From: Nannobrachium achirus
Lineage: Eukaryota; Chordata; Actinopteri; Myctophiformes; Myctophidae
Direction: 5' to 3'
Length of the DNA stretch: 64,000 nt
NCBI GenBank assembly: GCA_963921795.1
Contig: OY997641.1
Location: 76,212,279-76,276,278 of the forward strand
This document shows, one piece after another, positions 3,192 to 63,036 of the stretch; position 1 is the stretch's first letter; every line of letters starts with the position of its first letter. The position numbers and the translations under genes were made by a program. The notes beneath the pieces were generated by a model, which worked only from the letters and a program-made list of their open reading frames with translations, had not been told where the DNA came from and made no database searches.

Positions 3192-3242
3192 ATTTTAAAA
3201 ATATAGCAGATCTACAAGCTCGTAGATCTGCTATTTTAAAAA
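3192..3242. repeat. AGATCT hairpin, loopless copy
   Basis: Arms meet at AAGCTCG with practically no loop. It is the left bracket of the composite repeat ending at 3520. Confidence 0.88.
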
Positions 3243-3490
3243 TCTTGAACATTTGTGCAAGTCTTTGACTCAATTCTATAAAAGGTTCTAATAAAGGTTT
3301 TTTTGAAAAAAACGCATGTTTCTATGTCAGTGGTGCTCAAGCTTTTTCATGTGAAGGACCCCCAAAATGATATGTATTTGGCCACGGACCCCCATCTCAA
3401 AATATTTAGTTACAGGGACCCCCCAGGAGCTAACTATGAGTTACAAATGTTCGCTTTAAAAACAAAAATGTGCACACATTTTCACGACAC

Positions 3491-3520
3491 TTCAAAAATA
3501 GCAGATCTACAAGTACTTGT
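3491..3520. repeat. AGATCT hairpin, half-site
   Basis: Only the left arm TAGCAGATCTACAAG remains. It is the right bracket of the 3192-3520 composite. Confidence 0.7.
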
Positions 3521-3599
3521 ACTTCTCACCCTGGCTTTGACGCGCGTTATCATTAGCGATAAAAGAGAGGGCAGCTGCAGACCACAGCAGAACAATTAA

Positions 3600-3680
3600 C
3601 TGTTCTGCTGCCCTTGACAGTCCTCACCGTCATTGAAAGGGTTAACACCATGGCACCGTTGACGGTGAGGACTGTCAATC
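3600..3680. repeat. inverted repeat TTGACAGTCCTCACCGTC
   Basis: Left arm at about 3614, complement ending 3679, with a 29-base loop. A smaller palindrome GCAGAACAATTAACTGTTCT lies just before. Confidence 0.75.
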
Positions 3681-4131
3681 TTACTGTATATACAGTAAAG
3701 TTATTATTACTTACTGTACGTCGATCCGCACCCGCCCGCATCGGTAATGTCCGCGATTTGTTTACAACGCACGTCGGGCGTGCACGCGAAGTGAACGTCC
3801 TCCATAGTAAATCCATTGAGAGGCCCATAAAGAGACTTCATTTACTCCAAGAGAGACATTTTGAGCCATTTTGAGCCAGGTCTAATGTAAACAATACACA
3901 CGGCTGGGCGCAGCCATGTTTCTCTTCTGGGCTCACACTGTCATGTGACTAGATGACGTAATCGTTGCCGTCAAGTGATAATCCAAAAAAAACAAAAACA
4001 ACCCCCTTCCGGCCCTTCAAAATAAAAGCGGCGGCCGACGGAGGAAACGGCGCGGCACCAAGGCACCTAGCAACCTTCAGATTAAAAGGCAGTAATTGTG
4101 TTAAGGCTCCCTGATATTATCCTAGATAAAG

Positions 4132-4322
4132 TACTATGTTCTATCCGTCTGTCTTTCAATGTTATATGAGATACTTAAAGTGTGGTTCCTGTGGAAATAA
4201 GCCTCGGCTTTCTAGGATCTCCTTTTAGTTGACCTTGTACCAGTGATTTGTACTGTCATGAAACTGTACTTTTTTCTATTGCAAACTTCTAATAAATTCT
4301 TCAATCAATCAATCAATCAAAA
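4132..4322 (+). mobile_element. 3' end fragment of the (AATC)n-tailed LINE
   Basis: This matches the 3'UTR of the 14258-16880 element (TTCAATGTTATATGAGATAC, then CAAACTTCTAATAAA) and ends in (CAAT)n. It is a severely 5'-truncated copy. Confidence 0.8.
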
Positions 4323-4601
4323 CCTGTACACCACCAAAAAAAAGAAGTTGGAGAGACATAAGTGGGTTCTAGACGGTATGCGGTCACCGCCTCCTAGTAA
4401 TTCATTTTCAATGAGAGGCGGGCGGCTAGTTCGGCCGCGCAGCAAAGTTTAGAGGCGGCGAGGCGAGCGTGAAAATCCCTGCGAGCGCGCTCGTTTGTGC
4501 ATGCGTACGCGGGCGGAGAGAGATGGATTGTGTATCACCACGGCACGGTCCCCGCAGATCCAAGCGGGAGCCCCGGTGGCAACCGCTGCCCGTCTGTAGA
4601 G

Positions 4602-5121
4602 CAGGGGTTCCCAAACTGTTTTGCACCCCGTGAATATTTTTTTTAATCCGAGGCACCCCTACATTATAAATCTCACTCCCAGCACCTTATATTTAGAGCA
4701 TATCGTCCTTGTCGGGTGGAAACCTTGTATGTCCAAAACCGTTCGTTTTGTATTTATCATCTATAAAATGTACTAAACTAGTGAAAACAGCTGATCTACA
4801 AGCACTAGATCGGCTGTTTTCACTAGTTTTGTGCAACAGTCTTGTATGATAAAGCAGGGCTTTGCTTTACCAAAAGACGTACACATTTGAAACATGGAGA
4901 TACGCGGTTTCTGCCCGACAGTGACGATATTTTAGTGATTATGTTGCATAGGAAAACGTTGAGATAATGGCCATTTTGGTTAGAACTGACTGAAAATAAC
5001 TTTGTACTTCAAGTTTAAAATGAAACTAAATATTTTTTCAAGCGTCCAAATAAATTCCAAATATTATCAAATTACCTCGCGGCACCCCAGGGTGCCCCGT
5101 CACCCACTTTGAAAACCCCTG
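4602..5121. mobile_element. hAT-type MITE with perfect 8-bp target duplication
   Basis: CAGGGGTTCCCAAACTGTTT at the left and TTTGAAAACCCCTG at the right are terminal inverted repeats. CTGTAGAG occurs immediately outside both ends (4594-4601, 5122-5129). It contains a hairpin-family copy at 4776-4830. A related copy is at 36359-36865. Confidence 0.88.
4776..4830. repeat. AGATCT hairpin inside the 4602-5121 MITE
   Basis: Variant arms AACTAGTGAAAACAGCTGAT, with outer stem ACTAGT shared with the sister at 36550. Confidence 0.88.
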
Positions 5122-5364
5122 CTGTAGAGCACCATTTCAGCATTTCATACTGCCACTGTGAACCTCTGAATGACGTCACATTGTAGTTTTGTCCCGTGAA
5201 AATCTGCTATCTGCTTGTATATCTGCTATTTTTCAATAGCATAAAATATTGGTTAGACCAGTGGTTCTAAACCTTTTCAGGCCGCGACCCCCAAAAAGAA
5301 TCATATTTTAACTGGGGACCCCCCACCCTGACGAGCACTAAGAGTTGAGGCGTTACATTTTGTG

Positions 5365-5553
5365 TCCACCTGTTTCCGCAAGAATTTACTGTAGCATTAT
5401 CTGCGGGACACTTCCAGTTAACAGCAGGCATACAAGCTCACGTCGCGTCGCAGATGCAACCGTTGTGTGCTTGTAGATCAAACTCGGCTGCGGCGCCGGA
5501 AGCCGCCGCACACCTTCTGCGCAATGCACGAGGGGACGATGGAAAGTTGTGGA
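5365..5553. mobile_element. inserted hairpin-bearing module (copy 1)
   Basis: Bounded by TCCAC and GTGGA, this block interrupts the family seen uninterrupted near 11750. The reverse complement of most of it occurs at 22724-22922 in an unrelated element. It contains a diverged hairpin (5411-5472) and a GC-rich part (CGGCGCCGGAAG). Confidence 0.6.
5411..5472. repeat. AGATCT hairpin, diverged, in the mobile module
   Basis: ACAAGCTCACGTCGCGTCGC with a right arm TGTGCTTGTAGATC. The left arm core is changed to AGGCAT. Confidence 0.65.
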
Positions 5554-5566
5554 TAACTCTGTTCTA

Positions 5567-5612
5567 TTGTGAAAATAGCAGATCTACATGCTCACAAGTG
5601 CTATTTTCACAA
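5567..5612. repeat. AGATCT hairpin, short
   Basis: ATTGTGAAAATAGCAGATCT, then GTGCTATTTTCACAAT. The right inner arm is deleted. Confidence 0.8.
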
Positions 5613-5864
5613 TTTCTGCCTCTAATGTTCGACAGTTTGACGAATGTTTAATTTGTCATTTTAGAGGTATTAAAACTTCCTTAAATTGTCACTTTAGAAA
5701 CGTGCATACACCCTCTATACATTTAAACTTTATGTTGGTTTGTTTACTGTTGAGTGAGAAAACAATGTTTCACATTAAACTAATCATCTGGGGACCCCCC
5801 CCCCCCAAAATAATTTGGGGACCCACAGGTTGAGAACCATTGGGTTAGACGCGTTCCCAGCCTA

Positions 5865-17180
<11,316 letters not shown>

Positions 17181-17577: not shown

Positions 17578-17657
17578 TTTGAAAATAGCAGATCTACAAG
17601 CTCACAATGTGTTGCATTGCTGCACATTTTGAGCTTGTAGATCAGCTGTTTTCAAAA
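17578..17657. repeat. AGATCT hairpin in hAT MITE 17355-18432
   Basis: Full arms with loop ATGTGTTGCATTGCTGCACAT. The sister MITE has its hairpin at 46936-47015. Confidence 0.88.
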
Positions 17658-20320: not shown

Positions 20321-20515
20321 GACTTTATTAGAGTCTGCATAGGAAAGGTACCGTTTCATGGCAGTACACAGAATGACAGAAACATAGTACAGTATTATGC
20401 AGGGGAAAAAAAGAAACACAATGCAAAATAAATGGTATTTGCAATAGAAAGATCAGGGGGAGGTAAGAATAGGCTTTGTTTTCTTTTACCAGTTTCGAAT
20501 AGCAACCGCCTCTAA

Positions 20516-21632
20516 GGCCCCTATTAGACGAAAACAGGCTTCACTGTAAACGTAATGGTTTATAGTCGTTTGTGGGGGGTCATTTAGACGAAAATGGCGT
20601 CTTCGGGGGGTGAAACCGTAACAAAGTGAACCCCCCTCTGAAAGTGGAATAGGTAAAAACGCTTTGTATCTCCCGCTTTCATCTAAATACCGTAAACGCA
20701 GCAAACCACTGAAAATGATAAGATGTGGGACGTCCTAGGGCTGTCCCAGTGGTGTAAACTAAAGTAACTATTAAGTACATTTTTGCTAACGTTAGCCCTA
20801 ATTTATACCGTAGCTATTTGAAAATAGCCGATCTACAAGCTCACAACAACGCGTCGCGGTGCTTGTGAAAATAGCCGATCTACAAGCTCACAGCGCGTCG
20901 CGGTGCGTTGTGAAAATAGCCGACCTACAAGCTCACAAGTTGTGAAAATAGCAAACTGCAAAAATAGCCGACGCTGAAAATAGCGACAGTAGCCTATAAT
21001 GTTTATCATGACTCGATCCAACATCTATAGCTCGTCGTCGTCTGTATGTAATCATCATCATCCCCTCCATAAGCTGCAGTAAAGGCATTGACTCCAGTCC
21101 TCTGTGTTGAAACGAAACGTGAAGTGAACGCCTTTTCTGTATCGTATAATATAGTCCCGAGATGTGTATGGTACATGTGTCTGTTCCGACCGTCTGGAAC
21201 ACACTTTTTAATATAGTTAGCCAGCCAGCCAGTCTGCCTGTGCTGTGTGACGGCAGTGCGTTGTGTTGACTGACTGAGGAGGACTTCTTTGCTGGCTGCT
21301 AGGAAGTAGAACCAGAGCAGTATAATCAGAGAGTGGTGTCACCGCGGGGTCAGAAACAGCGTTGGTCACGTGGTTCATAGTCACTTTACACCTCATAGAC
21401 TTCAATGCATTTTGTGAAGTGAACGGGAGTGACGCAACTCTCCATTCTAGGGCTCTGAGTAGAACGGAACTTGGGCAGTGCGGTCATGGAGACATGCGCC
21501 ACCTAGCGACCTGGCATGCAAATTACCGCGTTTAGGGACAAATTGCGTTTTCATCTAAAGACCACATAAAAAATGAAAACTAAACGGCTCTTAGCCGTTT
21601 ACAGTGAAGCCTGTTTTCGTCTAATAGGGGCC
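20516..21632. mobile_element. PIF/Harbinger-like non-autonomous element with TAA duplication
   Basis: Inverted ends GGCCCCTATTAGACGAAAAC and its complement extend about 37 bases. TAA precedes and follows (20513-20515, 21633-21635). The uninterrupted LINE copies at 52660 and 53950 show the empty site. 1117 bp, no transposase ORF. It carries a cluster of hairpin copies. Confidence 0.88.
20818..20985. repeat. tandem cluster of AGATCT hairpin units
   Basis: AAATAGCCGATCTACAAGCT occurs twice and AAATAGCCGACCTACAAGCT once in direct orientation at about 58-base spacing, each followed by GCGTCGCGGTG-type loop. Two further degenerate AAAATAGC starts follow. Inside the Harbinger-like element. Confidence 0.85.
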
Positions 21633-22388
21633 TAAGTGGCTTTTCAGAGCGATTTTAAAGGAAGTAGGGATTTACTCTCCTTTAAGGCCTTCGGTAGGGC
21701 ATTCCACATTTTAGCGTTATAGCAGGAGAGCCAAATCTGGGTTGGACGTGATCTCTGGTGTTGTAATTGTGAACATCCTTGACGTTTTGTAAGTATTTTG
21801 TCAGGTACATGGGTATCTTAGTGGTGTTGTGTATCTTGTGCAACAGGCCCATTGCAAGATGCTGTTCTCTGTCAGCTACCGTGATCCATGCTTAGAAAGT
21901 TATTAGCGGTAAGGTAAGCCCAAGATGGAAGGTTAAGCAGCAGCCTAATTAGTTTGCTTTGGGCTGTTTGGAGCTTTTTTGTTTGGCCTTTGAGGTGTCA
22001 CGATACCGGCGAAAGCCGAGTGCCAAACAACCCTTGAATGGTAAATTGCTTTTCTACCACCTCTACCATATAAATGAAAGACAACACAGTTGTAACTTGC
22101 AAGGTTATTTAGTTGCAATCATTAATTGTTTCAGTGGGCGGGGTCCGTGAGCCAACTCAAGATTGTTGACTGATTGTTGACTGATCTATTCTTTGATAGT
22201 GTTAGAATAGAATGTAAACAAAGTGTCGGCCTGACAATGGCCAAAATTATTGTTTTATCATTATTTTACGCTTGTTGTGGTCATTTTTTAATTGAAACAC
22301 ATATATGAAGCTTATTCTTTTATAAAATATTTTCGAAACATTTTTATTTTAGCATCCGTTTTTCAAGAAAAAGTTGACTATAGCTCCT

Positions 22389-23049
22389 TTAAAGCTATAC
22401 CGTGTAAGTTGCTCAACTAGTTGTCAGTAGCGGTATAGCAAACCGCGTCGCGTCTGCTTTATTCGTCCGTTTTTCGCCACGGACCGGGCCTTCAGACGCC
22501 CGCGTCCGCCTCGCCCGCCTCGCCACGCATCTCGTGTCCCTCTGCGGACTGGCGTTGGGGAGTTACAGGCTAGACTTCTAGCGTAAACAAAGCTGTTGAA
22601 GCAAGCTATGTGTGTATGATCCGCAATGTGATTGGCCAACGTATACACAACGTATACGGATGATGCAGATGACGTCATTTTGCCGCGAAATCCCGCCCCT
22701 GTCACGGCTAAGTAGAAAACATATCCACGAGTTTCCAACGCCCCATAGTGCATTGCGCAGACGCTGTACCGAGCTTCCGGCGCCACAGCCGAGTGTGATT
22801 TACAAGCTCACAACAGGCTGCATCTGCGACGCGACATGAGCTTGTATGTCTGCTGTTAAACCGGAAGTGTGGTGCAAACAGGTCCAAATAATCTCCAGTA
22901 AACTCCCGCGGAAACAGGTGGATAAAGAAAAGGCTTTTGGGTCTGAAATTAACGGAGTGGGGGTTCTAAAACCTTAGCAATTTAATAGTTAGGACAATTT
23001 TAACTGTTAAGATATGTTTTATAAAAAAAGTTACATAGCATAACTTTAA
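22389..23049. mobile_element. TTAA-flanked MITE (AAGCTATAC family) carrying an extra module
   Basis: Ends TTAAAGCTATACCGTGTAAG and TTACATAGCATAACTTTAA. Same family as 28478-29005 and 45176-45685, but longer because of the 22724-22922 insert. Confidence 0.75.
22724..22922. mobile_element. inserted hairpin-bearing module (copy 2, inverted)
   Basis: Lies inside the TTAA-flanked element 22389-23049. The sister copies at 28478-29005 and 45176-45685 lack it. It shares GTGCATTGCGCAGA, CTTCCGGCGCC and GCATCTGCGACGCGAC with the 5365-5553 block in reverse. Confidence 0.6.
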
Positions 23050-24212: not shown

Positions 24213-25252
24213 TCTGACAGGGGCGCTGGAACTCCCAAATCCCAAGGGGAGCTGAGCTTGGAGGAGTTCATGCGTGAAAACCGAAACCCGGAAATTCACA
24301 TCTTTTTTATCCGGTTTTGGGTTATTTTTATTACGGTTTCAGGTGCTTATTCCCCGCACAATGGTGTAACAAGGAGCTTTATAGTTACTATTTATTTTAG
24401 CACACAGTGCAATACACAGCACACACGCACAGACACACAGTCACTCACGCACACACTACAAAATCGGGTATTATTTTCGTAACTGTTTTCTACTGTTTTT
24501 TATTCCCCATATACAACGGTGTTAGTTTGCAACAATGAGCCTACATACAGTTTCTAGTTCTCAAATAAATAGACTTTGGTTTGCCATCAAAGCGGGATTT
24601 ATTTTAAAACAAAATTTAAATTCGACTTCCCTTCTGACCGGAGGTGGCAAGGTGACCATGTGATTAGGTGACCATGTGATAATCACACCTTTTTTCAACA
24701 TATTTTATTCCCCAAAGTCAAATACATTATTGTTTTAATATAGCTCTGTGTTTGTATATATAGGCCTATATATAAAAATAAAAAATAAAAAATATATATA
24801 TATAAAGTATTTTTCTCCTCCCCACCACCAGGGGAGCTGCAGCTCCCTCAGCACCCCACTTCCAGCGCCCCTGCATTCTGAGCTGCGAGCGGTCCTGAAA
24901 GCAGCCTATATAATGCTGCGCACATACAGTATATAGGCTTACTATATATAATTTGTAAAATACCCAGCAGAGCATTTGGGGAAGCATAGCCTCTCCTAGC
25001 CTTCATTACGCGCCGCCCATGGTTAAGAGGAAGAGCTGTGCAATTGTGTAAGTAATGCAATGCTTTATAATGAGCCATTGAGGAACATTAAGTGTTAAGA
25101 GGAAGAGCTGTGCAATTGTGTAAGTAATGCAATGCTTTATAATGAGCCATTGAGGAACATTAAGTGTTAAGAGGAAGAGCTGTGCGCGTCCAACTAAGGC
25201 ATCTCCCATTATTGATTATAGTTAGTGCGAGTGTGTTGCGTCATGAATGCTG

Positions 25253-25328
25253 AAAATAGTCGATCTGCAAGCTCACATAGCGTCTAATCTACGACGTGTT
25301 GTGAGCTTGCCGATCATCTATTTTCACG
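25253..25328. repeat. AGATCT hairpin in duplication block A
   Basis: Arms GAAAATAGTCGATCTGCAAG and complement; loop contains GCGTCTAATCTACGACG. The paralogue is at 60343-60418. Confidence 0.85.
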
Positions 25329-27298
25329 GACACGTGGAAATTCAGTCGATAGGCTACACAATGTCGCCCCCTGGATGGTTAAAGGCCGTTCCATGGTTAT
25401 TAATTAAAAATATTATTATTATTATTATTATCTGGAGTCTGTGAGGTCAGATGCAGAGGTATTGGCCAGCTCCATATATGGAGATGGCTTGGCCATATAT
25501 GGAGTGTGACATGAGGCGTGACACACGGACGGACATGATCTGCAGGTTTCATACTAAATGACTAATTTGCATACTTAAATGATTGATTTGGAGGATCCCC
25601 CTGGTAAAGTTATTCTGTGGGTAATTCCTTTGCCAAAGTCTACATCAGCCCTGACTTCAGGAGAGGGTGCATAAAGGGGCGGGCCCAAGCCCTCACTGAC
25701 TTAAAGCCTGTCCATAGTCACTCCGAAACTTTTCGTCGGAAAGGACTGGTTCGACTACAAAATGAACTCACACATTTCTACAGTGACTGACAATTACAGT
25801 GCATCAAACTAATGTTTGAGTGCCAAATATAAATGTAGCAATGAATGCAATGATAGTTTTTTTTTCTTCTTTTTATAAAAATGTATTAAACTGTTTTTAT
25901 TTAGGCACTTCTATTATTTGCTGTTATTTGTTGTGTCATATTTTGCTACACTGTTCAAGCTTGATTGTTTTCATGTTGTAACTTTTGTGTTACAGGAAAA
26001 TAAATCTTGTGACCTTGGTGTGAGCCATTTCAAACGTGCATTCCTGATTGGCTGCTGAGTGAAGCAGGAAGTGAAAGTAAAGTTTGGGGACTTTCCTCTG
26101 TGGTCGCATGGAATCATGGGTACAGTGTGAGACAGCTGTCTACAGGAAATGTGTTCATAAACATACTGTATTGTAATGCATTACAAAAATTGGGCATGTA
26201 TAATAGTTATACGTATACAAAATAAATACATGCATTATAAAGTTATGAATGTCGAAGAAGTGTGAAGTTACTATCACTGCATGTGAGGCAAAAACAAAAG
26301 TAGTAAAAACATTTCGCACCAAATGTTTAAAATAATATTAATAAAATAAGGATACATGCATACAGTACATGCATCATAAAGTTATGCATGCACTCATCTC
26401 ATCTCATGACCTGGATCAAGTTATGCATGTGTTAAACAATTAAACAATCATCTCATCTCATGATGACCAGTACTAATACTGTAGGTCTGTGCATGTTAGC
26501 ACAATAGATCTCCTTTTTTTGAAATGTCTGGAAAAGTTGTGCAATCTTTGAATATACTGTGTGTATTTTTACATTTTTGTAACTCAAATATTGCTATCGG
26601 GGGTCCCTGGAACTAAATATTTTGAGATAGGGGTCCGTGGCCAAATACCCTTGACATGAAAAGGTTTGTGTACCACTAACATAGGTTTTTCAGAAACCTG
26701 TTAGGATTTAGGAGACATGTATAGAATCGGGTCAATATATTCAAGACTTTCACAAAAAAAATAGCAGATCTACAAGCAGAGATGGGAAGTAACGAAGTAC
26801 AAATACTTCGTTACTGTAACGAAGTATGTTTTTTCAGTACTTTGTACTTTACTGAGTATTTATTTTTCTGAGTACTTTTTACCTTTATCCGTTACATTTT
26901 AACACAAGTATCTGTACTTTTACTCCGCTACATTTTCAAAACAGGCTCGCTACTTTGGTTTTATGTTAATGTTGCGCCGATGCATGCGTGGCAGATCAAA
27001 CGAAATGATTAGAGCACTCGATCATCATGCATAGAGGCTGCGGTGACGCTCTGGCTGCTGGCCATAGTGAGAGAGTCACACTGTGTGAAGTAGCCAAGCA
27101 TCGGTCTATTTACTTCCTGCAACTAGACTAACACATAAAACTAATCATATAGCCTACATAATAGCCTAATACCTTATGCTCTTATTTTGAAATCCACGGT
27201 TTTCAGAGGACGTCTGGTTTAATTCTACCATCATAACAATGCTGTGTAAACCATTCATCTCGTCATGGCTTTCAAACATGTCAACACAATAGGCTATA

Positions 27299-27702
27299 TG
27301 CATATACGCCATTTTGTTCTACTTCCGGGTGTCTTTCGACTTCCTTCACAGGTGTTACCGATGATACTAATGAAGGGTCTGTTCCATTCTGGTCAAACAG
27401 AGTCAGGGTGCTGATATTGTGCATGTTGGCTCACTGGAAACACTCTGCTACACCAGTGGGTCTCAAAGTGTCCTTGAGTGGGTTCCAAATGTCCCCATAC
27501 AGTTGTGTAACTCTGAGAGTGTACAAATGGAAGCAAATTTGATTCCATTTGTTGATTCCATTTGTACAGAGTTATGGGGGTCCTTGAAATTAAAGAACCA
27601 CTGTACAATAAATCAAACAGAGCCTTCATTAGTATCATCAGTAACACCTGTGAAGGAAGTCGAAAGACATCCGGAAGTAGAACAAAATGGTGTATATGCA
27701 TA
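27299..27702. repeat. foldback element
   Basis: CGCCATTTTGTTCTACTTCC at the left is repeated as its complement at 27675-27700. The arms are about 85 bases (through TTCACAGGTGTTACCGATGA). Between them is a short MITE starting CAGTGGGTCTCAAAG; inverted relatives lie at 2440-2560. Confidence 0.75.
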
Positions 27703-27967
27703 GAGCCTATTCACGTGGATTATAACTTCTATAACATATGGATTATAAACACAAGACTTTGGCCATGCTGCGGAAGTGCGTTCTTTTTGAACCTCCAAAG
27801 CTTAGGTGAGTCATTGGCAGTGTTTTTTATCTCATGATGCTGGATAAGTGTAGCCCTGAAACGGGCTAGATAAATGCTTATGTCAAGTTCTGTGTGGAAA
27901 AAGTGAAATGGTCTGCACAACTGTAGCTTAAACTGTTCGGTCATCTTTGCCTCGCAAGAGGCTTTAG

Positions 27968-28077
<110 letters not shown>

Positions 28078-28204
28078 GCGCGCGCGCGCGCGTGCGTGTG
28101 TGTGTGAAACCAATTCTGGGCCAGTTTTAAGACGTGTGTTTGGTGGGGATCTTTTAATTTTAATATCCTTCAAATTCTAGAAATATACATATACTTATCT
28201 GGAG

Positions 28205-28245
28205 CCAGACGATCTACAAGCATGTCAATCTGCTATTTTTGGCTA
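28205..28245. repeat. AGATCT hairpin, loop-deleted
   Basis: GATCTACAAGCATGTCAATC then TGCTATTTTTGGC. Paralogue at 62680-62708. Confidence 0.7.
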
Positions 28246-28477
28246 AAGTTCTCAGAATATGGACGTTAGGCTTCAAGAAGTTAATATAAAAAAGGAGAAA
28301 AAAATCACTTACAGTAATCACTCAATGATTTGGGGCTCCCCCTGTAGTAACTCTGAGGACGAACCCCCTGTTGAAGACCCCTGCACTAGGGGTTTAGTCT
28401 TTAGTAGGCCTACCTTGCTCAAGGACAGTTTGAACACATACAAGTAACCTGGGGATGTTTGACAGCTGTGCCGACAC

Positions 28478-29005
28478 TTAAAGTTGTACCATGTAACTTT
28501 TTTTATAAAACAAATCTTAAAATTGTCCTAACTGTTAAATCGCTAAAGTTTTAGAACACCCACTCCGTTATTTTCAGCTTCTGAAGCCTTCTCTTTATAT
28601 GTTTTCTATGATCCTGGCCGTGGACCGGATTTCGCGCCAAAATGACGTAATCTGCATCATCTGTATTGTGTATACGTTGCCCAATCACATCGCCGATCAT
28701 GCACACATGGTACACTACCGGCCAATTACAGCGCATCTTGAAGTGGGGTCGCCATATTTGTAGTCGCCCGTGTGTCTCTTTACTCAAAAGGTAATCTCGC
28801 CTACCAGGCAGGGTGAAGTAGTCCGTTTCTCCGGAATGCCTGAACGCACAGGAACCAGGGACCCCTCTAAAGATAGCTCTCGGCGTTGTGGAGGCAGACG
28901 CGGGGGTGTGAAGGTACGAAAAACGGGCGAAAGACGCGAACGCGACCGCGGTTTGCTATAGGGCTACTGACCACTAGTTGAGCATATTACACAGTATAGC
29001 TTTAA
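28478..29005. mobile_element. TTAA-flanked MITE with visible empty site in the paralogous block
   Basis: TTAAAGTTGTACCATG to CAGTATAGCTTTAA. The duplicated block at 62961-62986 reads straight through with a single TTAA, so this is a post-duplication insertion with a TTAA target. Confidence 0.88.
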
Positions 29006-29019
29006 CTCTAGCATTGTAT

Positions 29020-30405
29020 TACAGTTTTTCACGATTGTTAACACACAAAAATCTAAACTTCTGCACAATTTTCACAACCTTCACTTCATGTACCTATAGC
29101 TTGACCTGATTTGGCACTACTTCACACTCGCTTTTCATGCATTAGACTCAGATTTTCTTTCTTTACACTCCAATTTTTGGTTGTTGCACAAACTTCTCAC
29201 GTAAAATATCAAAGCATCAACCTATAACACACAGATGTCAATTACAATTCACCTTTTTGTCGAAACACTATGGGCTACACAATGTTCAGTTGTTGCACAC
29301 ACTTCTCAGGTAAAATCTTAAAGTATCAACACACAACACACAACTATTGAAAACATTCAAGTCTGATGTCAATTACACAAGCACCTTGTTGTCTAAACAC
29401 TACACACAATGTCCAGTTGTTGCACAACTGAACATTGAGACAGGAACCAGAGGCAGATATGGGCACAAAATACAAAAATGATTTGAAATACAAAGATACA
29501 AATACCAGGATATTGTCAATAGGATAGTATCTTGGTGACATTATCCGGGAGAGTGTTTTCTGCAGGTGATTCAGTATGAGTGTATCAAAGGGTGCGTTTG
29601 GAAATGCGCACCGGGTGTGGTTAGGGTGAGGGATTAGGGTTAGGTTTAGGCATAGTTTTACTGAGGTTAAGGTTAGGGTTAGGGTTAGGTTTAGGCATAG
29701 TTTTACTGAGGTTAGGGTTAGGATTGGGGTTAGGTTTAGGCACTCACTACACTGAGCACACACCCGGTGCGCATTTCTGAACGCACCCTTTGATACACTC
29801 GGACTTAATCACCTGCAGAAAACACTCTCCCGACACTATCCTGGTCAATATTAGACCAAGTACTGACCAAGTATTTAGATTTTTTTCAAAATATATTTTT
29901 TTATATTTTGTGCCCATCTCTGACCGGAGGCATGATGCCTAAATCTACTGTAAATCATGTACCAAAATAAAACTTTTTGGATGCATATTTGTGTGCTGTG
30001 TTTGACTATATAAAAAAAGTAGGCCAACACTGAGTAATTTTACAAAAGGAGAAAAAGCTCATTCTCCAGAGTCAATGTCATTCATATGGTGTGTTCCAAT
30101 TCAATGGTGTGTTTTCAATTTTGCACTCCAGTGTGCTGTAAATGCTTGGTAGTGTGCAGCAAATGCTTAGTTGTGTGTACTGAATGAATGGTATGTGTCA
30201 TTTGAAAATATGGCCAAATGTACCAAATGAAAAATGAAGTCCAGTTTGTGAACACAGTGAAGTGATTTGATGGCAAAGAGATCATCTTGGGAAGGGAGTG
30301 TGAGGTTTAGCATTTTGTGTGTGAGGTTTTCAGTTTTGTGTGTGCAGTTTTGAAAAAGCCTTTAGTGTAGTGAAAAACGTGTGTTAACAATCGTGAAAAA
30401 CTGTA
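29020..30405. mobile_element. Tc1/mariner-type MITE at a TA target, with nested elements
   Basis: TACAGTTTTTCACGATTGTT and its complement end the element. The paralogous block (TA at 62985-62986) has an empty site. Inside are a hAT MITE (29454-29922) and within that a foldback with TTAGGG-like repeats. Further copies are at 35035-37486. Confidence 0.85.
29454..29922. mobile_element. hAT MITE nested in the TA-target element, itself interrupted
   Basis: CAGATATGGGCACAAAATAC to TTTTGTGCCCATCTCTG, flanked by ACCAGAGG/ACCGGAGG. The sister at 35462-35636 is only 175 bp. The extra roughly 290 bp here is a palindromic insert (arms GAGAGTGTTTTCTGCAGGTG and complement). Confidence 0.8.
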
Positions 30406-30557
30406 AACACTTAAGAGTGACACACAGACACACACACACAGACAAGAACACACAGACACACACACACAATCAAACAAACAAACAAACAAACAAACAAACA
30501 TACATGTATGTATAATCTGTAATGCTTGATCACTTCAAAAATCCACACTGTCGTCTT

Positions 30558-30600
30558 CCTGGACACAGATGATGCAACATTGCATCTACAATCTGATTGG
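30558..30600 (+). promoter_or_regulatory. MHC class II X-X2-Y promoter module
   Basis: CCTGGACACAGATG at 30558-30571 resembles the X1 box (CCTAGCAACAGATG). It overlaps TGATGCAA, an X2/CRE-like site. CTGATTGG at 30593-30600 is an inverted CCAAT Y box about 20 bases downstream. RFX, CREB and NF-Y bind this array and recruit CIITA. No clear TATA box was seen, as usual for class II. The S box was not identified with confidence. Confidence 0.75.
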
Positions 30601-30742
30601 CTTATACTTTGAAAGTACAGAGCAAAGCCTCTTTAGTTTCTTTTCAGATGTCAGAGCTAGTGTTGAAGTCAACAGCGGTTCATTCTGATCTGTTTGATCT
30701 GATTACTTTGTTCTATTCTGTTCAGCTCTGTTTTGATCTGTA

Positions 30743-46353
<15,611 letters not shown>

Positions 46354-46773: not shown

Positions 46774-47267
46774 CAGTGGTGTAAAAAGTGCTCAAATGTT
46801 TTACTTAAGTAAATACTGCAATGTGGAAATATTCTGTTACAAGTAATAGTCTGGAATTCAAAATTTACTTGAGTAAAAGTACAAAAGTTTTGGTATCAAA
46901 ATGTACTTAAAGAACCAAAAGTAAAAGTACAAAATATTTGAAAATAGCAGATCTACAAGCTCACAACGTGTTGCATCGCGACGCGTTGTGAGCTTGTAAA
47001 TCGTCTATTTTCAAATGGACAAGGTATAAAATAGGGCTAAAGTGCATGGTTTATGTATGTTTTATAATATTATAATTTATATCTGAAAAGTAACTTGTAA
47101 CTAAAGTTTTCAAATAAATGTAGTGGAGTAGAAGTACAATATTTGGATCCGAGATGTAGTGATGTAGTAAGTACTGGAAATTGGAAATACTCAAGTAAAT
47201 TACAAATACCAAAAAATTGTACTTAAGTACAGTACTAGTAAATGTGCTTAGTTACTTTACACCACTG
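46774..47267. mobile_element. MITE with CAGTGGTGTAAAAAGT termini
   Basis: CAGTGGTGTAAAAAGTGCTC to AGTTACTTTACACCACTG, sister of 17355-18432. Contains a full hairpin at 46936-47015. The flanking 8-mers match only 5 of 8. Confidence 0.7.
46936..47015. repeat. AGATCT hairpin, full length, in the class II 3'UTR
   Basis: TTTGAAAATAGCAGATCTAC arm, stem GCTCACAACGTGTTGCATCG and complement. It would lie in the mRNA 3'UTR if transcription runs to AATAAA at 47560. Confidence 0.88.
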
Positions 47268-48065: not shown

Positions 48066-48623
48066 GCACTTATTACCCGGCTAATACATAAAATTAATAA
48101 TTTGACTCAAAAACGAAAAAAAGTATTTCCTTGTTTAGAGACGGCTGAAAGTGTGTCCCCCCGAGTGCAACATGGTCGCCTTGGAAAACAAGGAAGTGCT
48201 GATCAAATAGAATCCATTTTCTGTTACTGCCTTGTCTATTTCTCGCCTCAAATGTTTTTTAAAACATTCTTCAGAGCAAGGTTTGGTTGTAAATGACGCT
48301 GTGTGTTTGTTTACATAGAAGACATGTTGGATACAGCACTAGATCCACGCCGCAGCCTGAATACAGCAGCTGCTCTGAGCCTTTGATTAGGCAGCGGTCA
48401 TTATACGCCTATAATTCACCGCTGATTTCAGCGCTCGACCAATCAGATTCAAGCATCAAAACAAGCCGGGTAATAATGCTCTTTAATATGATATGGTACC
48501 ATTTCTTGTCTACCCCGTCAGTGTCTCATAGGCCGGAGGGAAGTGGTCAATTAAGAAACCCACCCATCCTGCCCATTGATGATGTCATTGATGGGGAATC
48601 CAAGCTCTTCCAAGCATCGGAAA

Positions 48624-48683
48624 TAGCCGAAATCCAAGCTCGCGCTGCGAAGCATTGTGAGCTTGGAGGTCTGCTATTTTTTT
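48624..48683. repeat. AGATCT hairpin variant
   Basis: GGAAATAGCCGAAATCCAAG arm, right arm GAGCTTGGAGGTCTGCTATT. The changed core (GAGG for TAGA) matches the split copy at 10066/10853. Confidence 0.75.
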
Positions 48684-51905: not shown

Positions 51906-51984
51906 ATGAATACTTGAATGAATACTTGAAAACTGTAGAAAACTGTAGAAAGTTCAAGAAACTAAAAGCTAAATTAATTAAAAC

Positions 51985-52515: not shown

Positions 52516-53095
52516 TTATCTCAGTTTAGTAGGGTTAGGGAAAAAAGAAAAGAAAAAAGAAAAACACAATGCAAAATAAATGGTATTTGCAATAGAAAGA
52601 TCAGGGGGAGGTAAGAATAGGCTTTGTTTTCTTTTACCAGTTTCGAATAGCAACCGCCTCTAAGTGGCTTTTCAGAGCAATTTTAAAGGAAGTAGGGATT
52701 TACTCTCCTTTATAAGGCCTTCTTTAGGGCATTCCACATTTTAGCAGCATAGCAGGAGAGCCAAATCTGGGTTGGACGTGATCTCTGGTGTTGTAATTGT
52801 GAACATCCTTGACGTTTTGTAAGTATTTTGTCAGGTACATGGGTATCTTAGTGGTGTTGTGTATCTTGTGCAACAGGCCCATTGCAAGATGCTGTTCTCT
52901 GTCAGCTACCGTGATCCATGCTTAGAAAGTTATTAGCGGTAAGGTAAGCCCAAGATGGAAGGTTAAGCAGCAGCCTAATTCGTTTGCTTTGGGCTGTTTG
53001 GAGCTTTTTTGTTTGGCCTTTGAGGTGTCACGATACCATACGTGGACTGTATAGTCAAAGTGTGGTTGAATGATTGCTCCTGCTAGAGTCTTCAA

Positions 53096-53242
<147 letters not shown>

Positions 53243-54390
53243 CCCCTACAGTTTAAATCTTTGTGAATGTTTAAAATGTGTCAATTTGAGAATAAACTGA
53301 CATGAAAAAGTATTTTGTATTTGAAATACAGAAAATACTAGACCTGAAAGTATTTTGATACAAATTACTTTCTTTCTCCATCCCAGCCAAATACAAATGA
53401 CAAACTAGAACTGCTCTTAGCTCCTTTCGGAACCTCTCCCTCCGCTATACAGAATCCTGCTGGTCGTTAGATGCCCAGATGAGATTTTTCTGGCGATAGT
53501 TTGCCACATTTTCCCGATTCTTACCTTCAACACACATCGCACTGGTATATACGTAAGGGTTAGGTAGATGTCTACTTTCTTAGCGGCGAGGGAATTCCAA
53601 GCGTTGAAAGTAAGCCATTTACCATGAGAGGGAGTGGGTTGTTGGCTGATTTACCACTGTTTCAGGGTTGTTTGGCACTCGGCGAGTTCCAAACAACCCT
53701 CGAATGGTAAATTGCTTTTCTACCACTTCTACCATATAAATGAAAGAAAACACAGTTGTAACATGCAAGGTTATTTAGTTACAATCATTAATTGTTTCAG
53801 TGGGCGGGGTCCGTGAGCCAACTCAAGGTCGTTGAGAAAAAGAAAAAAGAAAAACACAATGCAAAATAAATGGTATTTGCAATAGAAAGATCAGGGGGAG
53901 GTAAGAATAGGCTTTGTTTTCTTTTACCAGTTTCGAATAGCAACCGCCTCTAAGTGGCTTTTCAGAGCAATTTTAAAGGAAGTAGGGATTTACTCTCCTT
54001 TATAAGGCCTTCTTTAGGGCATTCCACATTTTAGCAGCATAGCAGGAGAGCCAAATCTGGGTTGGACGTGATCTCTGGTGTTGTAATTGTGAACATCCTT
54101 GACGTTTTGTAAGTATTTTGTCAGGTACATGGGTATCTTAGTGGTGTTGTGTATCTTGTGCAACAGGCCCATTGCAAGATGCTGTTCTCTGTCAGCTACC
54201 GTGATCCATGCTTAGAAAGTTATTAGCGGTAAGGTAAGCCCAAGATGGAAGGTTAAGCAGCAGCCTAATTCGTTTGCTTTGGGCTGTTTGGAGCTTTTTT
54301 GTTTGGCCTTTGAGGTGTCACGATACCATACGTGGACTGTATAGTCAAAGTGTGGTTGAATGATTGCTCCTGCTAGAGTCTTCAATGTAT

Positions 54391-54516
<126 letters not shown>

Positions 54517-55670
54517 CCCCTACAGTTTAAATCTTTGTGAATGTTTAAAATGTGTCAATTTGAGAATAAACTGACATGAAAAAGTATTTTGTATTTGAAA
54601 TACAGAAAATACTAGACCTGAAAGTATTTTGATACAAATTACTTTCTTTCTCCATCCCAGCCAAATACAAATGACAAACTAGAACTGCTCTTAGCTCCTT
54701 TCGGAACCTCTCCCTCCGCTATACAGAATCCTGCTGGTCGTTAGATGCCCAGATGAGATTTTTCTGGCGATAGTTTGCCACATTTTCCCGATTCTTACCT
54801 TCAACACACATCGCACTGGTATATACGTAAGGGTTAGGTAGATGTCTACTTTCTTAGCGGCGAGGGAATTCCAAGCGTTGAAAGTAAGCCATTTACCATG
54901 AGAGGGAGTGGGTTGTTGGCTGATTTACCACTGTTTCAGGGTTGTTTGGCACTCGGCGAGTTCCAAACAACCCTCGAATGGTAAATTGCTTTTCTACCAC
55001 TTCTACCATATAAATGAAAGAAAACACAGTTGTAACATGCAAGGTTATTTAGTTACAATCATTAATTGTTTCAGTGGGCGGGGTCCGTGAGCCAACTCAA
55101 GGTCGTTGACTGATTTACCACTGTTTTAAGCCAATCAGAATCCAGTATCTGAACATGTGACCACAAAAAGTGGTAGAACAATGATTTTAACTTTGTCAGC
55201 CAGTTCCATGTTTTTCCCAGTGAAATTTTACAGAAGCATTAATGTACATGGGTGACTGGCCATCAATCTGTGTTGCAGAAATGTTTCACCACCAAGCGGT
55301 CGGGGCGAGAAAACTGGCCACATGCTGACAAAAACACAGAACTGGCTGACAAAACGAGCGATTTAAAAGTATTGTTTCAACACATGGTTTGAATTTCCCC
55401 CAACGCGAAAAAAAGTAAACATCTGAGAGACGGGTATGGGACCTTTCCTTTTTGGATACGATGTTTGGTGAAGGAAGAATCGGGAAAACGTTGCAAACTA
55501 TCACCAGAAAAATCTCATATGGGCATGTAACGACCAGGAACCTAATATTTACTTTAATTTGTTTGTTTTAATTCAATTCTTATCATGCATTTTTTTAATA
55601 AACATTTCTCTTTCATTTCATCTCCCTTTGAGAAAGCACAATACTGTTTGTTGACTGTTAACTGCGATTC

Positions 55671-57819: not shown

Positions 57820-58362
57820 TAACGCTTTACTTTACAGTACGGTAATTACCAGTTAATTATTGGTAATTACCAGGTAACTATTAGGTAATACCCATTATTT
57901 ACTGGGTATTTACCAGGTAATTACATGCCATTACATACTACCTGCTATATTCCTGAAAACTACCAGGTAATTACCAGGTAATATTAAGTATTTGCCATAA
58001 TTACATGTTAAGTACCTGGTAATACACTTATTAATTACTAGGTTTATTACCTGGTAGTTACCAGGTAATTATGAGTATGTAATTACCCAGTAGTTACAGT
58101 TGAACTGTACTGTAAAGTAAAGCGTGGGTCAATTGGATGACCTTACTTAGTAATTGCTAAGTGTTTACGCAGTAACTAGAATATGTACCTTGCATTTACC
58201 CAGTTAAGTGGAACTACGGTAAAAATAAGTACTTTTTGTTGGGACCAAATGGCATCGTGGCCATGGGTGGATAAAATAACCAGGGAGTGGTAATACCCAG
58301 TAGTTACCTGGTAATTACCTAGTAAGTACCTGGTAATGACTGTACTGTAAAGTAAAGCGTTA
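57820..58362. mobile_element. MITE of GGTAATTACCAGGTAA repeats
   Basis: TAACGCTTTACTTTACAG and its complement end the element. The interior is an irregular array of TTACCTGGTAATTACC-type palindromes. Confidence 0.75.
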
Positions 58363-58960
58363 GCAGCGAGGTATATATAGCCTAATCAGTTTGATACTGT
58401 TTGAGCTGTTTGAGCTGTACACAGTAAATCAATCGCCTCGTTGATCATTCTCCCCTGCTATGCTGTGCTACGCTCTGTGGGGGGAAATCTCCACCAGGTT
58501 AGGTTGTCCACCCCTGGCTTGTAAAATTCATAGGAGCCAAATGGAATGAAATCTGCTTAAACTTACTGACATACGGATACAGAACCATACATACAGAACC
58601 AGGCTATATAATGTCAGGTGGAAACCTTGTATGTCCGTAAATAAAAATGAATAAACTCATTAATGTATGGCAGCTGTTTTTTTTTGCTGCACAATGGGAG
58701 TCCTAAATTACAACAAGGCACCAGGGGCTCTGAAATAATTACATTATCATTTGTATTTATTGTTATTATTATAATTATACTCATTCAAATGACCACCAGT
58801 GAGCACTGGGACTCACTTCATTGAACAACAACTGTATTGTACCAGTAAGACTCCCTAATCGGGAGATAAGCGACCGTTGGTCGCTTATCTCCACAAATAT
58901 CACAACCTCCACCTCTCACGTCATACGGGTAGCCATAGTTACACCTGGAATGTTGAATCT

Positions 58961-59460
58961 CCATATATGGAGATAACCTACGCATCACACAAAGTCTGAC
59001 CTCACCAGCCCATACTTGGGCATGGACGACTTATATCTCCATATACGGAGATGGCCATATATGGAGATACGATGACATCACAGAGTCCACAGCTGATGAT
59101 GTGGCGTGATGTTATACAATACACAAACAAGCCCTATATAAAGGGGCAATTCTCACCAGGGAAGAGAGCATTGCCTGGAATGTTGAATCTCCATATATGG
59201 AGATAACCTACGCATCACACAAAGTCTGACCTCACCAGCCCATACTTGGGCATGGACGACTTATATCTCCATATACGGAGATGGCCATATATGGAGATAC
59301 GATGACATCACAGAGTCCACAGCTGATGATGTGGCGTGATGTCATACAATAAACAAACAAGCCCTATATACTGATGCGATACGATGACATCACAGAGTCC
59401 ACAGCTGATGATGTGGCGTGATGTCATACAATAAACAAACAAGCCCTATATACTGATGCG
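58961..59460. repeat. 230-bp tandem repeat, two copies plus a partial third
   Basis: Units begin near 58947 and 59177 (TGGAATGTTGAATCTCC). A third partial unit runs from about 59379. Each full unit has CCATATATGG twice and GATGACATCACAGAGTCC. Confidence 0.85.
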
Positions 59461-60342
59461 GAGATATGAGCAGGGCAAAGGTGTGACGTGTGACGTGTGA
59501 CCGACCGACCGACCGACGGACGGACGGACGGCCGGTGGAGGTTTTCATAGTAAACTGCTCCCTGACGGTCGCAATTAGATATTATTATAATATCTAATAA
59601 ATATTAATAGATCTAATATATGTTGGCAATGCATTTCATAATTTGTTATGGAGTAACGCAAAAGTAGTGTAACGAGTAGTGTAACTAGGTACTTTCTCCA
59701 GGGAGTAATGAAGTAGTGTAAGGCACTACTTTTTTCAAAGGTAATATGTAATATGTAGTGCACTACTTTTTTGAGTAACGGACCCCAACTCTGCTTCTGG
59801 CTCATTCTCAGAATGAATGGACATTTAGTTTGGCTGTTGATATCACGGGAGGCCGTCAGAGTGCCGTGGAATTCCAAAGCCAGTATAGGCCTACTATAAT
59901 AAACGTAATTGATTCAATCTAATGTGGCGTGGCACCGAAATTATACTGCGTTCCAACAGTCCCTTTACCATTACAGAGAGACCGCCTGTATGCTTATTTA
60001 TAATGCAATGTTTTCCAGCAGCAAATAATAGAAAATTATGAATAACAAGTCTGTTGTTGGCAATCATGCCGTGAAGAATATAAATCCACGTTACATGATC
60101 CAACTGATGTACTGTAAGTAATACGTTCTGTGGTCTACCTTGCTTTCTTGGGGTGAACTATGAAGAATGATCTTGCAAGCATTATATCCCCCCAAATAAA
60201 TACCCAATTGTGTAAGCAATGTGATGCTTTATAATGAGCCATTGAGGAACATTAAGTGTTAAGAGGAAGAGATGTGCGCGTCCAACTAAGGCATCTCCCA
60301 TTATGGATTATAGTTTGTCGTGCGAGTGTGTTGCGTCAGGCT

Positions 60343-60418
60343 GAAAATAGCCAATCTGCAAGCTCACATAGCGTCTAATCTACGATGTGTTGTGAGCTTG
60401 CCGATCATCTATTTTCAC
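60343..60418. repeat. AGATCT hairpin in duplication block B
   Basis: Paralogue of 25253-25328 with a few substitutions in both arms. Confidence 0.85.
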
Positions 60419-62212
60419 GGACACATGGAAATTCAGTCGATAGGCTACACAAAATCTTATAAAGTAGCGAGAACATCAGAGCTTCTTAATACGGCACAGT
60501 TAAGAAGCAGGAGTTAAATTATGAACTGGCTGGTAGAGTCATCGTTGTGATGTCAGAACAGGTCAGCTATATCCATAGGCGCCGATAACGTGCCTGCTGC
60601 AGGGCTGTAGCACCCAGACAGATTTACAGTGATTGATGGGGATGGGGAGCCTCGCCCATAGGCGAGGCGCTCGATTTGGGTTCTGCAACCATTGGCACAC
60701 ACATATCTGGAGTCTGTGAGGTCAAATGCAGAGGTATTGGCCAGCTCCATATATGGAGATGGCTTGGCCATATATGGAGTGTGACACACGGACGGACATG
60801 ATCTGCAGGTTTCATACTAAATGACTAATTTGCATACTTTTAAATGATTGATTTGGAGGATCCCCCTGGTAAAGTTATTCTGTGGGTAATTCCTTTGCCA
60901 AAGTCTACATCAGCCCTGACTTCAGGAAATGGTGCATAAAGGGGCGGGCCCAAGCACTCACTGACTTAAGGCCTGTCCATAGTCACTCCGAAACCTTTCG
61001 TCAGAAAGGTCTGGTTCGACTATAAAATGACGTCACGCATTTCTACAGCGACTGACAATTACAGTGCATCAAACTAATGTTTCAAAACATGTATTAAACT
61101 GTATGTTTTTATTTAGACACTTCTATTATGTGCTGTTATTTGTTGTGTCATATTTTGCTACACTGTTCAAGCTTGATTGTTTTCATGTTGTAACTTTTGT
61201 GTTAATATTGTCTTGGAAAGGGCTTTCTTTGTATAAACTAGACCAGGTCAACCTGGTTGTGCCAGACCCCCTGTCTGTCATCATCATTTATGACATCATG
61301 CCTTTTGTAGGCATGTCATCATCATGTCATCATCATATATACCCTTTATATAGAAAAGGGACAGACCGACATTTGCTTATGTAGGCCTACCCATTTCATG
61401 GGTCTGGCAATAACAGTATAAAAAAAAATCTTGTGATCTTGGTGTGAGTGGGGGGGGGGGGGGCTGTGTACCATTTCAAACGTACATTCCTGATTGGCTG
61501 CTGAGTGAAGCAGGAAGTGAAAGTAAAGTTTGGGGACTTTCCACTGTGGTACATGGACTCATGGTTACAGCGTGAGACAGCTGTCTACAGGAAATGTGTT
61601 CATAAACATACTGTATTGTAATGCTTTATAGAAGTTGGGCATGTATAATAGTTATAGGTATACAAAATAAATACATGCATTATAAAGTTATGAATGTTGA
61701 AGAGGTGTGAAGTTACCATCACTGCATGTGAGGCAAAAACAAAAGTAGTAAAAACAATGTCTTGCCCCAAAGGTTTAAAATAATAATAATAAAATAAGGA
61801 TACATGCATACAGTACATGCATCATAAAGTTATGCATGCACTCATCTCATCTCATGACCTGGATCAAGTTATGCATGTGTTAAACAATTAAACAATCATC
61901 TCATCTCATGATGACCAGTACTAATACTGTAGGTCTGTGCATGTTGGCACGATAGATCTCCTGTTTTTGAAATGTCTGGAAAATGTGTGCAAATCTTTGA
62001 ATATACAGAATGTATTTTTAAACTTTTATAACAAAAAATGTGCTATTGGGGGTACCAGGAACTAAATACATATTATATATGTGGCCAAATACATATCATT
62101 TTGGGGGTCCTTGACATGAAAAGGTTTGTGTACCACTAACATAGGTTTTTCAGAAACCTGTTAGGATTTAGGAGATATGTATAAAATCGGGTCGATATAT
62201 TCAAGACTTTCA

Positions 62213-62275
62213 CAAAAATAGCAAATCTACAAGCTCGCAGCAAGGCAGTCGGTGCCACACTGTGAGCTTGTGAGG
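62213..62275. repeat. AGATCT hairpin, paralogue of an interrupted copy
   Basis: ATAGCAAATCTACAAGCTCG and ACTGTGAGCTTGTGAGG. In block A (26756-26777) the same hairpin is cut after ACAAG by a CAGAGATGGGAAGTAACG element. Confidence 0.75.
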
Positions 62276-63036
62276 TTGGTCCTCAGTCTTTGGTAAACAA
62301 TGAGAGATTCTAGAATTCTACAGAGGTGATGAATGTTTGAACACGGTTTCATCACGTGATTTCTATAGTGCCTATCCATACTTTCACTGCACCAAACGGT
62401 GGAGGCAGCCATGAAAGGCAGGGCAGGGGTCTTCAACGTTTTCAGGCCACAGGCCATGGACCCCTTAGTTGAGAGAGATGAACCAGGGACCCCCACAACC
62501 TGTTCATATATTCCATATAGTTTTGTTTGAAAGCACAATCCTAATGTATTTTGGATTCATCTCAATTTGTGTTTTCATATATTTAACCACTTGAACTGTC
62601 AATACTTAATAAACTTGACCTTTCACTCTGTACTTAGTCTGCTCTTTTTCCCCTTGACACCAAACCTCTTTGCCAGAATATCTACAAGCTTGTAGATCTG
62701 CTATTTGTGGCTAAAGTTCTCAGAATATGGACGTTAGGGTTCAAGAGGTTAATATAAAAAAGGAGAAAATAAATTCTATCACTCAATGATTTGGAGCTCC
62801 CCCTGTAGTAACACTGAAGACCCCTAGGGGTCCTGAACCCCCTGTTGAAGACCCCTGCACTAGGGGTTTAGTCTTTAGTAAGCCTAACATGCTCAAGGAC
62901 AATTTGAACACATACAGTAAGTAACCTGGGGATGCTTGACAGGTACAGCTGTGGCTGTGCCGGCACTTAACTGTAGCATTGTATTAACCACTTAAAACCC
63001 AGCATCCCGTATTCCTGGGAAAAATAGCAGATCTGG

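Follow-up and report, generated by a model that had tools for sequence, protein, structure and literature searches.

A palindromic hairpin repeated throughout the Nannobrachium achirus genome, probably a fixed internal core of hAT-type MITEs

In a stretch of 64,000 nucleotides from Nannobrachium achirus (GCA_963921795.1, contig OY997641.1, positions 76,212,279 to 76,276,278; hereafter the window), an initial annotation had described a dense family of hairpins, and we find that this hairpin, of about 75 bases, recurs about once per 2 kb in sampled stretches of the 1,658,514,493-base genome. The reading that we favour, with a probability of roughly 0.65, is that the hairpin is a fixed internal palindromic core common to a large, mosaic set of hAT-type miniature inverted-repeat transposable elements (MITEs), and that it is copied within those MITEs. 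Own mobility of the present copies is not supported: the minimal mobile hairpin that the initial annotation offered as one possibility finds no backing in the empty-site search, in direct repeats of 6 or 8 nt, or in the flanks, which most sampled copies share with hAT MITE families. The conserved cis-signal that it offered as another is compatible with the sequences, in which the stem appears to be held between families by paired changes.

Copies were located by matching a 24-nt arm query, AATAGCAGATCTACAAGCTCACAA, on both strands of the window, with thresholds of at least 16/24 and at least 18/24. At the higher threshold the window holds 46 arms, whereas two first-order Markov sequences with its dinucleotide composition hold none; at the lower one it has 55 and they have 6 and 7, so that the claimed frequency beyond chance holds. 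Chance palindromes or AGATCT sites as the explanation were ruled out by these Markov controls together with scrambled-query and reversed-31-mer controls; AGATCT occurs 28 times in the window, and not every hairpin copy has it. An arm of at least 16/24 lies within 65 nt of 34 of the 37 coordinates first listed, while at 12926, 31850 and 63018 only shorter pieces were seen by eye. The canonical hairpin is 67 nt long, AAT to ATT, with 32 paired positions per side and a 3-nt tip. Exactly this length was found in 46 of 69 paired copies from the window and 29 genome loci, 28 of the 46 being, by hand count, matches of the E-family window hairpin (46943-47009) that served as query for the genome search; in scattered genome stretches 67 nt is the commonest length (24 of 48 pairs, hand count). 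DNA folding of six full copies yielded energies of -31 to -47 kcal/mol and structures of 35 to 38 pairs closed by a 3-nt tip, whereas their shuffled versions averaged -9 to -11 kcal/mol, and what had been described as a variable GC-rich loop is mostly inner stem. Across 50 arms, conservation begins at the GAA just outside the AAT and fades about 32 nt inward, with the core GATCTACAAGC among the best-conserved parts; it drops 3-4 nt beyond the AAT edge, and palindromy continues past the core for a mean of 3.44 nt (2.21 in shuffled sequence). An Rfam search of the window at gathering scores gave 0 matches, and thus no known structured RNA; AATAGCMGATCTACAAGCTC had 0 matches in the viral database IMG/VR; and six 14-mers of the arm had no match in a collection of published papers.

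Beyond the window, twenty 10-kb stretches of the genome at round coordinates were examined (L031-L050; 200,000 bases, 5,781 of them N). These hold 92 hairpins at 18/24 or better, present in 16 of the 20 stretches; by extrapolation the genome would have about 786,000 copies, or some 0.8 million (bootstrap range 532,000 to 1,040,000). The same 200 kb contains 132 arms, while of 20 scrambled queries 19 found no arm and the remaining one found a single arm, and the exact 31-mer TGAAAATAGCMGATCTACAAGCTCACAACGC occurs 4,380 + 4,343 times and one exact 59-mer 89 + 92 times, with 0 for the control (the reversed sequence, for the 31-mer) in both cases. A local cluster peculiar to the window was ruled out by the density in these scattered stretches (36 copies in the 64-kb window, 92 in 194 kb of non-N sequence); the window is ordinary for hairpin density and the hairpin is genome-wide. 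At 18/24, paired arms are found in 10 of the 36 window copies, many others being halves or copies without the inner stem, and at 17/24 the twenty stretches hold 48 pairs, 27 left-only arms and 32 right-only arms. The many palindromes lacking one arm or the inner stem are a natural series of palindrome deletions.

The elements around the hairpin were sought at 174 hairpins (at least 17/24 and at least 250 nt from a locus end, all E-query copies but one being excluded). A strict search, requiring CAG..CTG ends, a terminal repeat of at least 9/13 and at least 7/8 of an 8-bp duplication, found hAT-like ends with the duplication around 17 of the 174, compared with 4 of 600 control places. These represent 13 distinct elements, with the duplication 8/8 in eight and 7/8 in five, and in them the hairpin starts 47 to 262 nt from the left end, so that the palindrome is internal. 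A free-end search for 8-bp duplications only found 23 of 174, compared with 29 of 800 control places; 21 of the 23 begin with CAG, CAC or TAG, and two have ends that are not hAT-like. Thus, where ends could be read, the hosts are hAT-like, as part of the initial annotation had it, but its TTAA-type and Harbinger-like hosts were not found in these searches, which took only 8-bp duplications (the strict one also CAG..CTG) and were not aimed at such elements. The named families span 347-596 bp and, judged from their length, are non-coding:

E family: ends CAGAGGTGGAAAA, 491 bp
A family: ends CAGGGGTGTCGCA, 514-596 bp, with a pair of hairpins placed near 0.2 and 0.8 of the length
B1 family: ends CAGGGACGTGCTG, 467-577 bp, one of 352
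B2 family: ends CAGGGGTTCCCAA, 520-552 bp
G family: ends CAGGGGTCTTCAA, 459-475 bp
H family: ends CAGGGACGTGCAG, 422 bp
J family: ends TAGGAATGGGACGA, 422 bp (free-end search)
M family: ends CAGTGGTTCCCAAA, 347-369 bp (free-end search)
K family: ends CAGTGTTGTTTTTG, 434 bp (free-end search)

When the 160 nt beside each hairpin, with the hairpin masked, were compared with a library of 14 elements, matches were found at 74 of the 107 hairpins from the scattered stretches, at 36 of the 48 from other loci and at 32 of the 37 from the window (including about 8, 4 and 4 self-matches of library members, by hand count), against 17 of 200 control places. Because the flanks are mostly shared, most copies appear to have moved with their MITE. 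Genes for hAT transposases are plentiful, with 150 scored hAT dimerisation-domain matches among 1653 candidates. The sole hAT transposase locus fetched, L051, has a 633-aa frame with hAT dimerisation, Hermes DNA-binding and BED domains, in an element with ends TAGAGCTTAGA and duplication CTACTTAT. An open frame in L045, which looked hAT-like, had no Pfam match, and by eye no nameable element end was seen over 2.3 kb downstream of it.

The initial annotation held that the hosts share no sequence apart from the hairpin. Once the hairpins are masked, no alignment is indeed obtained at E 0.05 among E, G, H, J, K and F, but B1 and B2 have a core of about 250 bp in common, hairpin included, with terminal parts that do not align, and C, D and M have the end sequence CAGTGGTTCTCAAACC in common. 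B itself is an old inverted repeat around the hairpin (self-inverted match ATATCGTC..GAAACC..), and between families the inner region is better conserved than the ends. A fixed internal part of one ancestral MITE had been named as a finding that would refute the initial reading; the hairpin is indeed internal and fixed, but it sits in several families whose remainder cannot be aligned. Plain common descent from one old hAT MITE, of which only the core can still be aligned, without exchange or insertion, would account for the hAT-like ends of the strict-search elements (where CAG..CTG was required) and of 21 of the 23 free-end matches, for the end shared by C, D and M, and for a stretch resembling GGGYTHAAGTGGTTAAT that was seen by eye in E, G and some unassigned flanks. 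We consider it doubtful all the same, as the end types CAGGGACGTGCTG, CAGGGGTCTTCAA and TAGGRATGGGACRA are unlike, and B1 and B2 carry different terminal sequences around the same core, for which exchange is needed.

Insertion of the hairpin by itself, as a minimal mobile unit of about 75 nt that often enters MITEs and is mobilised in trans, would explain why the same core occurs in families that do not align elsewhere, why 67 nt is the commonest length (24 of the 48 sampled pairs) and why conservation falls 3-4 nt outside the AAT edge. The search for empty sites, in which left and right flank matches of 13 queried elements were joined by coordinates, tells against it: no clean empty site was found for any of the 13 in the window and the genome loci examined. 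The flank gap was exactly 73 nt in 24 of 39 joins for E, 4 of 18 for B1, 8 of 27 for B1b and 1 of 14 for G, families other than E being more fragmented, and where the gap is below 45 nt, either some of the palindrome is still present or flank sequence is missing. In 84 copies compared with 300 shuffles, direct repeats at equal distance from both hairpin edges were not above shuffling at 4 nt (3 against 3.75), 6 nt (1 against 1.77) or 8 nt (0 against 0.02). Repeats at free distance did not exceed shuffling either, at 6 nt (13 against 8.3, shuffle maximum 15), 7 nt (2 against 2.2) or 8 nt (0 against 0.7). Equal-distance repeats of 5 nt do point the other way, being present in 8 of the 84 copies compared with 2.06 in shuffles, none of the 300 reaching that number; all eight are TTCAA, TTGAA or TCAAA, and seven of them have, by eye, A-family flanks. 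This excess may leave room for an ancient insertion of the hairpin, but with flanks mostly shared with MITE families, self-insertion of the unit seems to us quite unlikely.

The two arms change together between families. In a set of 20 copies, with each flank type represented by one or a few, pairing is seen in 83.6% of cells compared with 76.2% after shuffling, 23 of 39 pairs have changes on both sides (12.8 shuffled), and there are 67 double-change cells (27.3 shuffled); none of 500 shuffles reached any of five measures, sliding the partner lowers pairing to 31-44%, and relatedness among the copies may inflate these figures. Among 31 flank-oriented E copies there was no such excess (3 double-change cells, 2.8 shuffled). 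Since the stem covaries between families and not within E, pairing seems to be kept where new families arise, while landed copies decay. A permutation on 11 chosen window copies gave p = 0.008 for homogenisation of the arms, which we rejected as a sign of ongoing correction because there is no covariation within one family. The E hairpin is 95.1% identical to its consensus and the adjoining 100 nt 92.7 and 90.9%, and this difference is no sign of slower change, because the query selected on the hairpin.

Pair 14 of the stem is mismatched in 30 of 31 E copies and in 9 of 10 double-exact loci among the matches listed. The same mismatch, and no other in the stem, is present in the consensus sequences for E (built from 30 copies), B (from 5), Bq (from 3), G (from 3) and D (from 2), except that G is also mismatched at the outermost pair. 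The two A consensuses (3 copies each) have mismatches at pairs 1, 4 and 18, and one of them also at 28. A universal pair-14 mismatch was rejected: among copies that are neither E-query matches nor of A type and have A or C in both arms, it is found in 30 of 57 (27.0 expected, p = 0.25), and in 18 of 32 (14.4 expected, p = 0.14) in the scattered stretches alone. Since there is no excess over these copies, the mismatch is taken as inherited within families. Relative to the flanks, the A of pair 14 is on the AT-rich side in all 30 classified E copies; of 8 classified B copies, three have A there with C opposite, three the reverse, one C on both sides and one C and T, and the two K copies differ from each other. 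The tip of E copies reads GCATCGC in 19 of 31 and its reverse complement GCGATGC in 6 of 31. These pair-14 and tip patterns fit either partial inversion of the palindrome or old subfamily differences.

It could be argued that mutation alone, by template switching between the arms, keeps the stem, without selection or role, given that template switching has been reported to create and to repair perfect stems (PMC8794818). We judge this unlikely: the 31 E copies show no arm-to-arm correction (3 double-change cells against 2.8), and the pair-14 mismatch persists in 30 of them and in five family consensuses (E, B, Bq, G and D), so that the absence of repair in resident E copies leans against mutation as the sole cause. 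The conservation of GATCTACAAGC would also suit arms that are transposase binding sites near the element ends, the palindrome being two such sites back to back. This seems improbable, since no arm motif (at least 9/11) was found elsewhere in 4,836 nt of the 14 masked elements (the rest of the sample has 0.10 per kb), in the strict-search elements 47 to 262 nt separate the left end from the start of the hairpin, and the paired changes are those of co-evolving arms, not of a fixed motif.

Several observations weigh against a fixed core shared among hAT-type MITEs. Readable hAT-like ends surround only 17 of the 174 hairpins, 33 of the 107 sampled copies match none of the families, and the transposase-bearing element of L051 has other ends and no hairpin. 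The missing alignments between families are weak evidence, because the library elements are single, decayed copies, and the GGGYTHAAGTGGTTAAT-like stretch recurs, by eye, 30-50 nt outside the hairpins of E, G and some unassigned flanks. The A family carries TTCAA/TTGAA direct repeats beside its hairpins, and ACTAGT, which is its own reverse complement, in the B flanks could be a target duplication. Finally, selection and template switching are indistinguishable in these data.

If the hairpin is such a shared internal core, a pathway can be envisioned in which the present copies multiplied as passengers of MITEs, with hAT transposases acting in trans, and recombination, gap repair or an ancient insertion brought the core from one MITE end type to another. 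In the source elements, selection for folding during amplification or else template-switch mutation would maintain the stem, and landed copies would simply decay. A bolder form, which we put forward tentatively, is that hAT MITEs with different end types have exchanged a single palindromic cis-module, which stays foldable because folding helps copying and so would be for DNA transposons what conserved domains are for short interspersed elements (SINEs), and that parts of the palindrome also invert relative to the flanks (B subfamilies, K copies, E tips). The success of MITEs is usually credited to the ends recognised by transposase. A core common to families with different ends, its shape held by paired changes only in source lineages, would, if true, point to an internal feature that aids MITE multiplication. 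The extrapolated 0.8 million copies, in families of different age, would likewise be a natural test bed for the decay, flipping and repair of palindromes in an animal genome.

The palindromes of bacterial repetitive extragenic palindromic sequences and bacterial interspersed mosaic elements (REP/BIME) are short, numerous and spread in trans, moving as units by a Y1 transposase. The likeness lies in short palindromes in large numbers; the difference is that no such enzyme or movement is shown here. Unit insertion of the REP kind, into different sites and with empty sites, was not seen in the sequence examined; the 5-nt repeat excess, mostly in A, points otherwise. Among published patterns, the nearest that we found is the CMITEs of Acropora corals, while Made1 is nearest in form and Angel nearest in host. 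CMITEs are about 100 bp long and piggyBac-related, with an inner region of unknown origin suspected of a role in transposition (PMC2872659). In both systems several MITE families have an inner region better conserved than the terminal repeats, whereas here the inner part is a near-perfect palindrome, the hosts are hAT-type, with CAG/TAG ends and 8-bp duplications instead of piggyBac ends (CCYT), and the copies number, by extrapolation, hundreds of thousands; the word hairpin is absent from the available text on CMITEs. Made1, the source of hsa-mir-548, is likewise a near-perfect palindrome folding into a stable hairpin, with two 37-bp repeats around 6 bp (PMC1784062), but there the whole element consists of terminal repeats, while here the palindrome is internal where ends are readable. 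Angel, a zebrafish MITE, is also a fish element whose single strand can pair with itself, which was the basis of a stem-and-loop amplification model (PMC12628747); as described there it is one element, in contrast to one palindromic core in several families. A further parallel is offered by SINEs, whose highly conserved domains, V for example (PMC6887750), are retained in and shared by otherwise different elements; the differences are that SINEs are RNA-borne and that a palindrome is not implied.

The copies and elements in the window are as follows:

3202..3235 (.): 34-nt hairpin of the A family that has lost its inner stem
3497..3520 (+): single A-family arm, at the far end of the 3202 element
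4602..5121 (.): hAT-type MITE (B2), ends CAGGGGTTCCCAA / CAGGGGTTTTCAA, flanked on each side by the target duplication CTGTAGAG; contains a shortened hairpin at 4786-4818
5207..5230 (-): single arm
5259..5842 (.): candidate hAT-type element, probably composite, ends CAGTGGTTCTAAAC / CAATGGTTCTCAAC, duplication GGTTAGAC; contains the hairpins 5420-5486 and 5574-5605
5420..5486 (.): hairpin, C family, imperfect palindrome
5574..5605 (.): hairpin, shortened stem, C/D flank type
8375..8418 (.): hairpin, shortened stem, A family
8712..8735 (-): arm of the second hairpin in the A element of the 8375 hairpin
9388..9443 (.): hairpin, D family, ACATGC in both arms
10066..10851 (.): H-family hairpin, palindrome split, by eye, by hAT-like sequence (TAGGGATGGCC..GGCCATCCC)
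11772..11818 (.): hairpin, left-arm deletion, C/D flank type
12635..12678 (+): copy without its right arm, reduced to left arm and inner stem; right flank G-like
13068..13091 (-): single arm
14016..14039 (-): single arm, E family
16942..16978 (.): short diverged hairpin
17584..17650 (.): 67-nt hairpin, E-like family
20823..20938 (+): tandem array of three arms, head to tail where the layout elsewhere is inverted; flanks E-like
22790..22857 (.): hairpin, C family
25255..25322 (.): hairpin, F family
26760..26783 (+): arm, A family, right part replaced, by eye, by hAT-like sequence (26760-26805)
28214..28237 (-): arm, G family
31858..31902 (.): inner stem and partial arm, G-like left flank
32642..32706 (.): hairpin, H family
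36560..36626 (.): 67-nt hairpin, B family
37510..37576 (.): 67-nt hairpin, A family
37833..37856 (-): arm of the second hairpin in the A element of the 37510 hairpin
42310..42376 (.): 67-nt hairpin, only a weak A-like flank (E 1e-4)
43190..43213 (+): diverged arm without family assignment
44745..44810 (.): 66-nt diverged hairpin without family assignment
46943..47009 (.): 67-nt hairpin, E family
48622..48678 (.): H-family hairpin, stem shortened, each arm with TCCAAGC
60346..60413 (.): hairpin, F family, second copy
62217..62240 (+): arm, A family
62682..62705 (-): arm of a shortened hairpin, G family

Two of these copies (10066-10851 and 26760) are, by eye, interrupted by hAT-like sequence, as expected of the target for other elements that the initial annotation had considered, but they are too few for a hotspot.

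The regions 25022-31220 and 60205-64000 of the window share several blocks in the same order at 85-96% identity (25113-25361/60205-60452, 25429-25992/60704-61204, 26019-26777/61465-62234, 28204-28465/62672-62942 and 30507-31220/63281-64000), and are either an old segmental duplication or a large composite repeat. A recent tandem duplication of about 1.29 kb at 99% identity comprises 52548-53835 and 53838-55109, with related pieces at 20406-22175. A long reverse transcriptase frame lies at 14146-16512 (RVT_1, E 1.5e-37), and the DNA of its 3' part recurs on the other strand at about 52.6-54.4 kb and at 21.6 kb. Outside the window, L041:5425-7770 is a retroelement frame with RNase H and Macro domains (E 6e-6) above the cut-off and integrase matches below it. 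The translation of 7357-7851 (-) in the window includes a stretch that, presumably, resembles an exon of mitochondrial ClpP.

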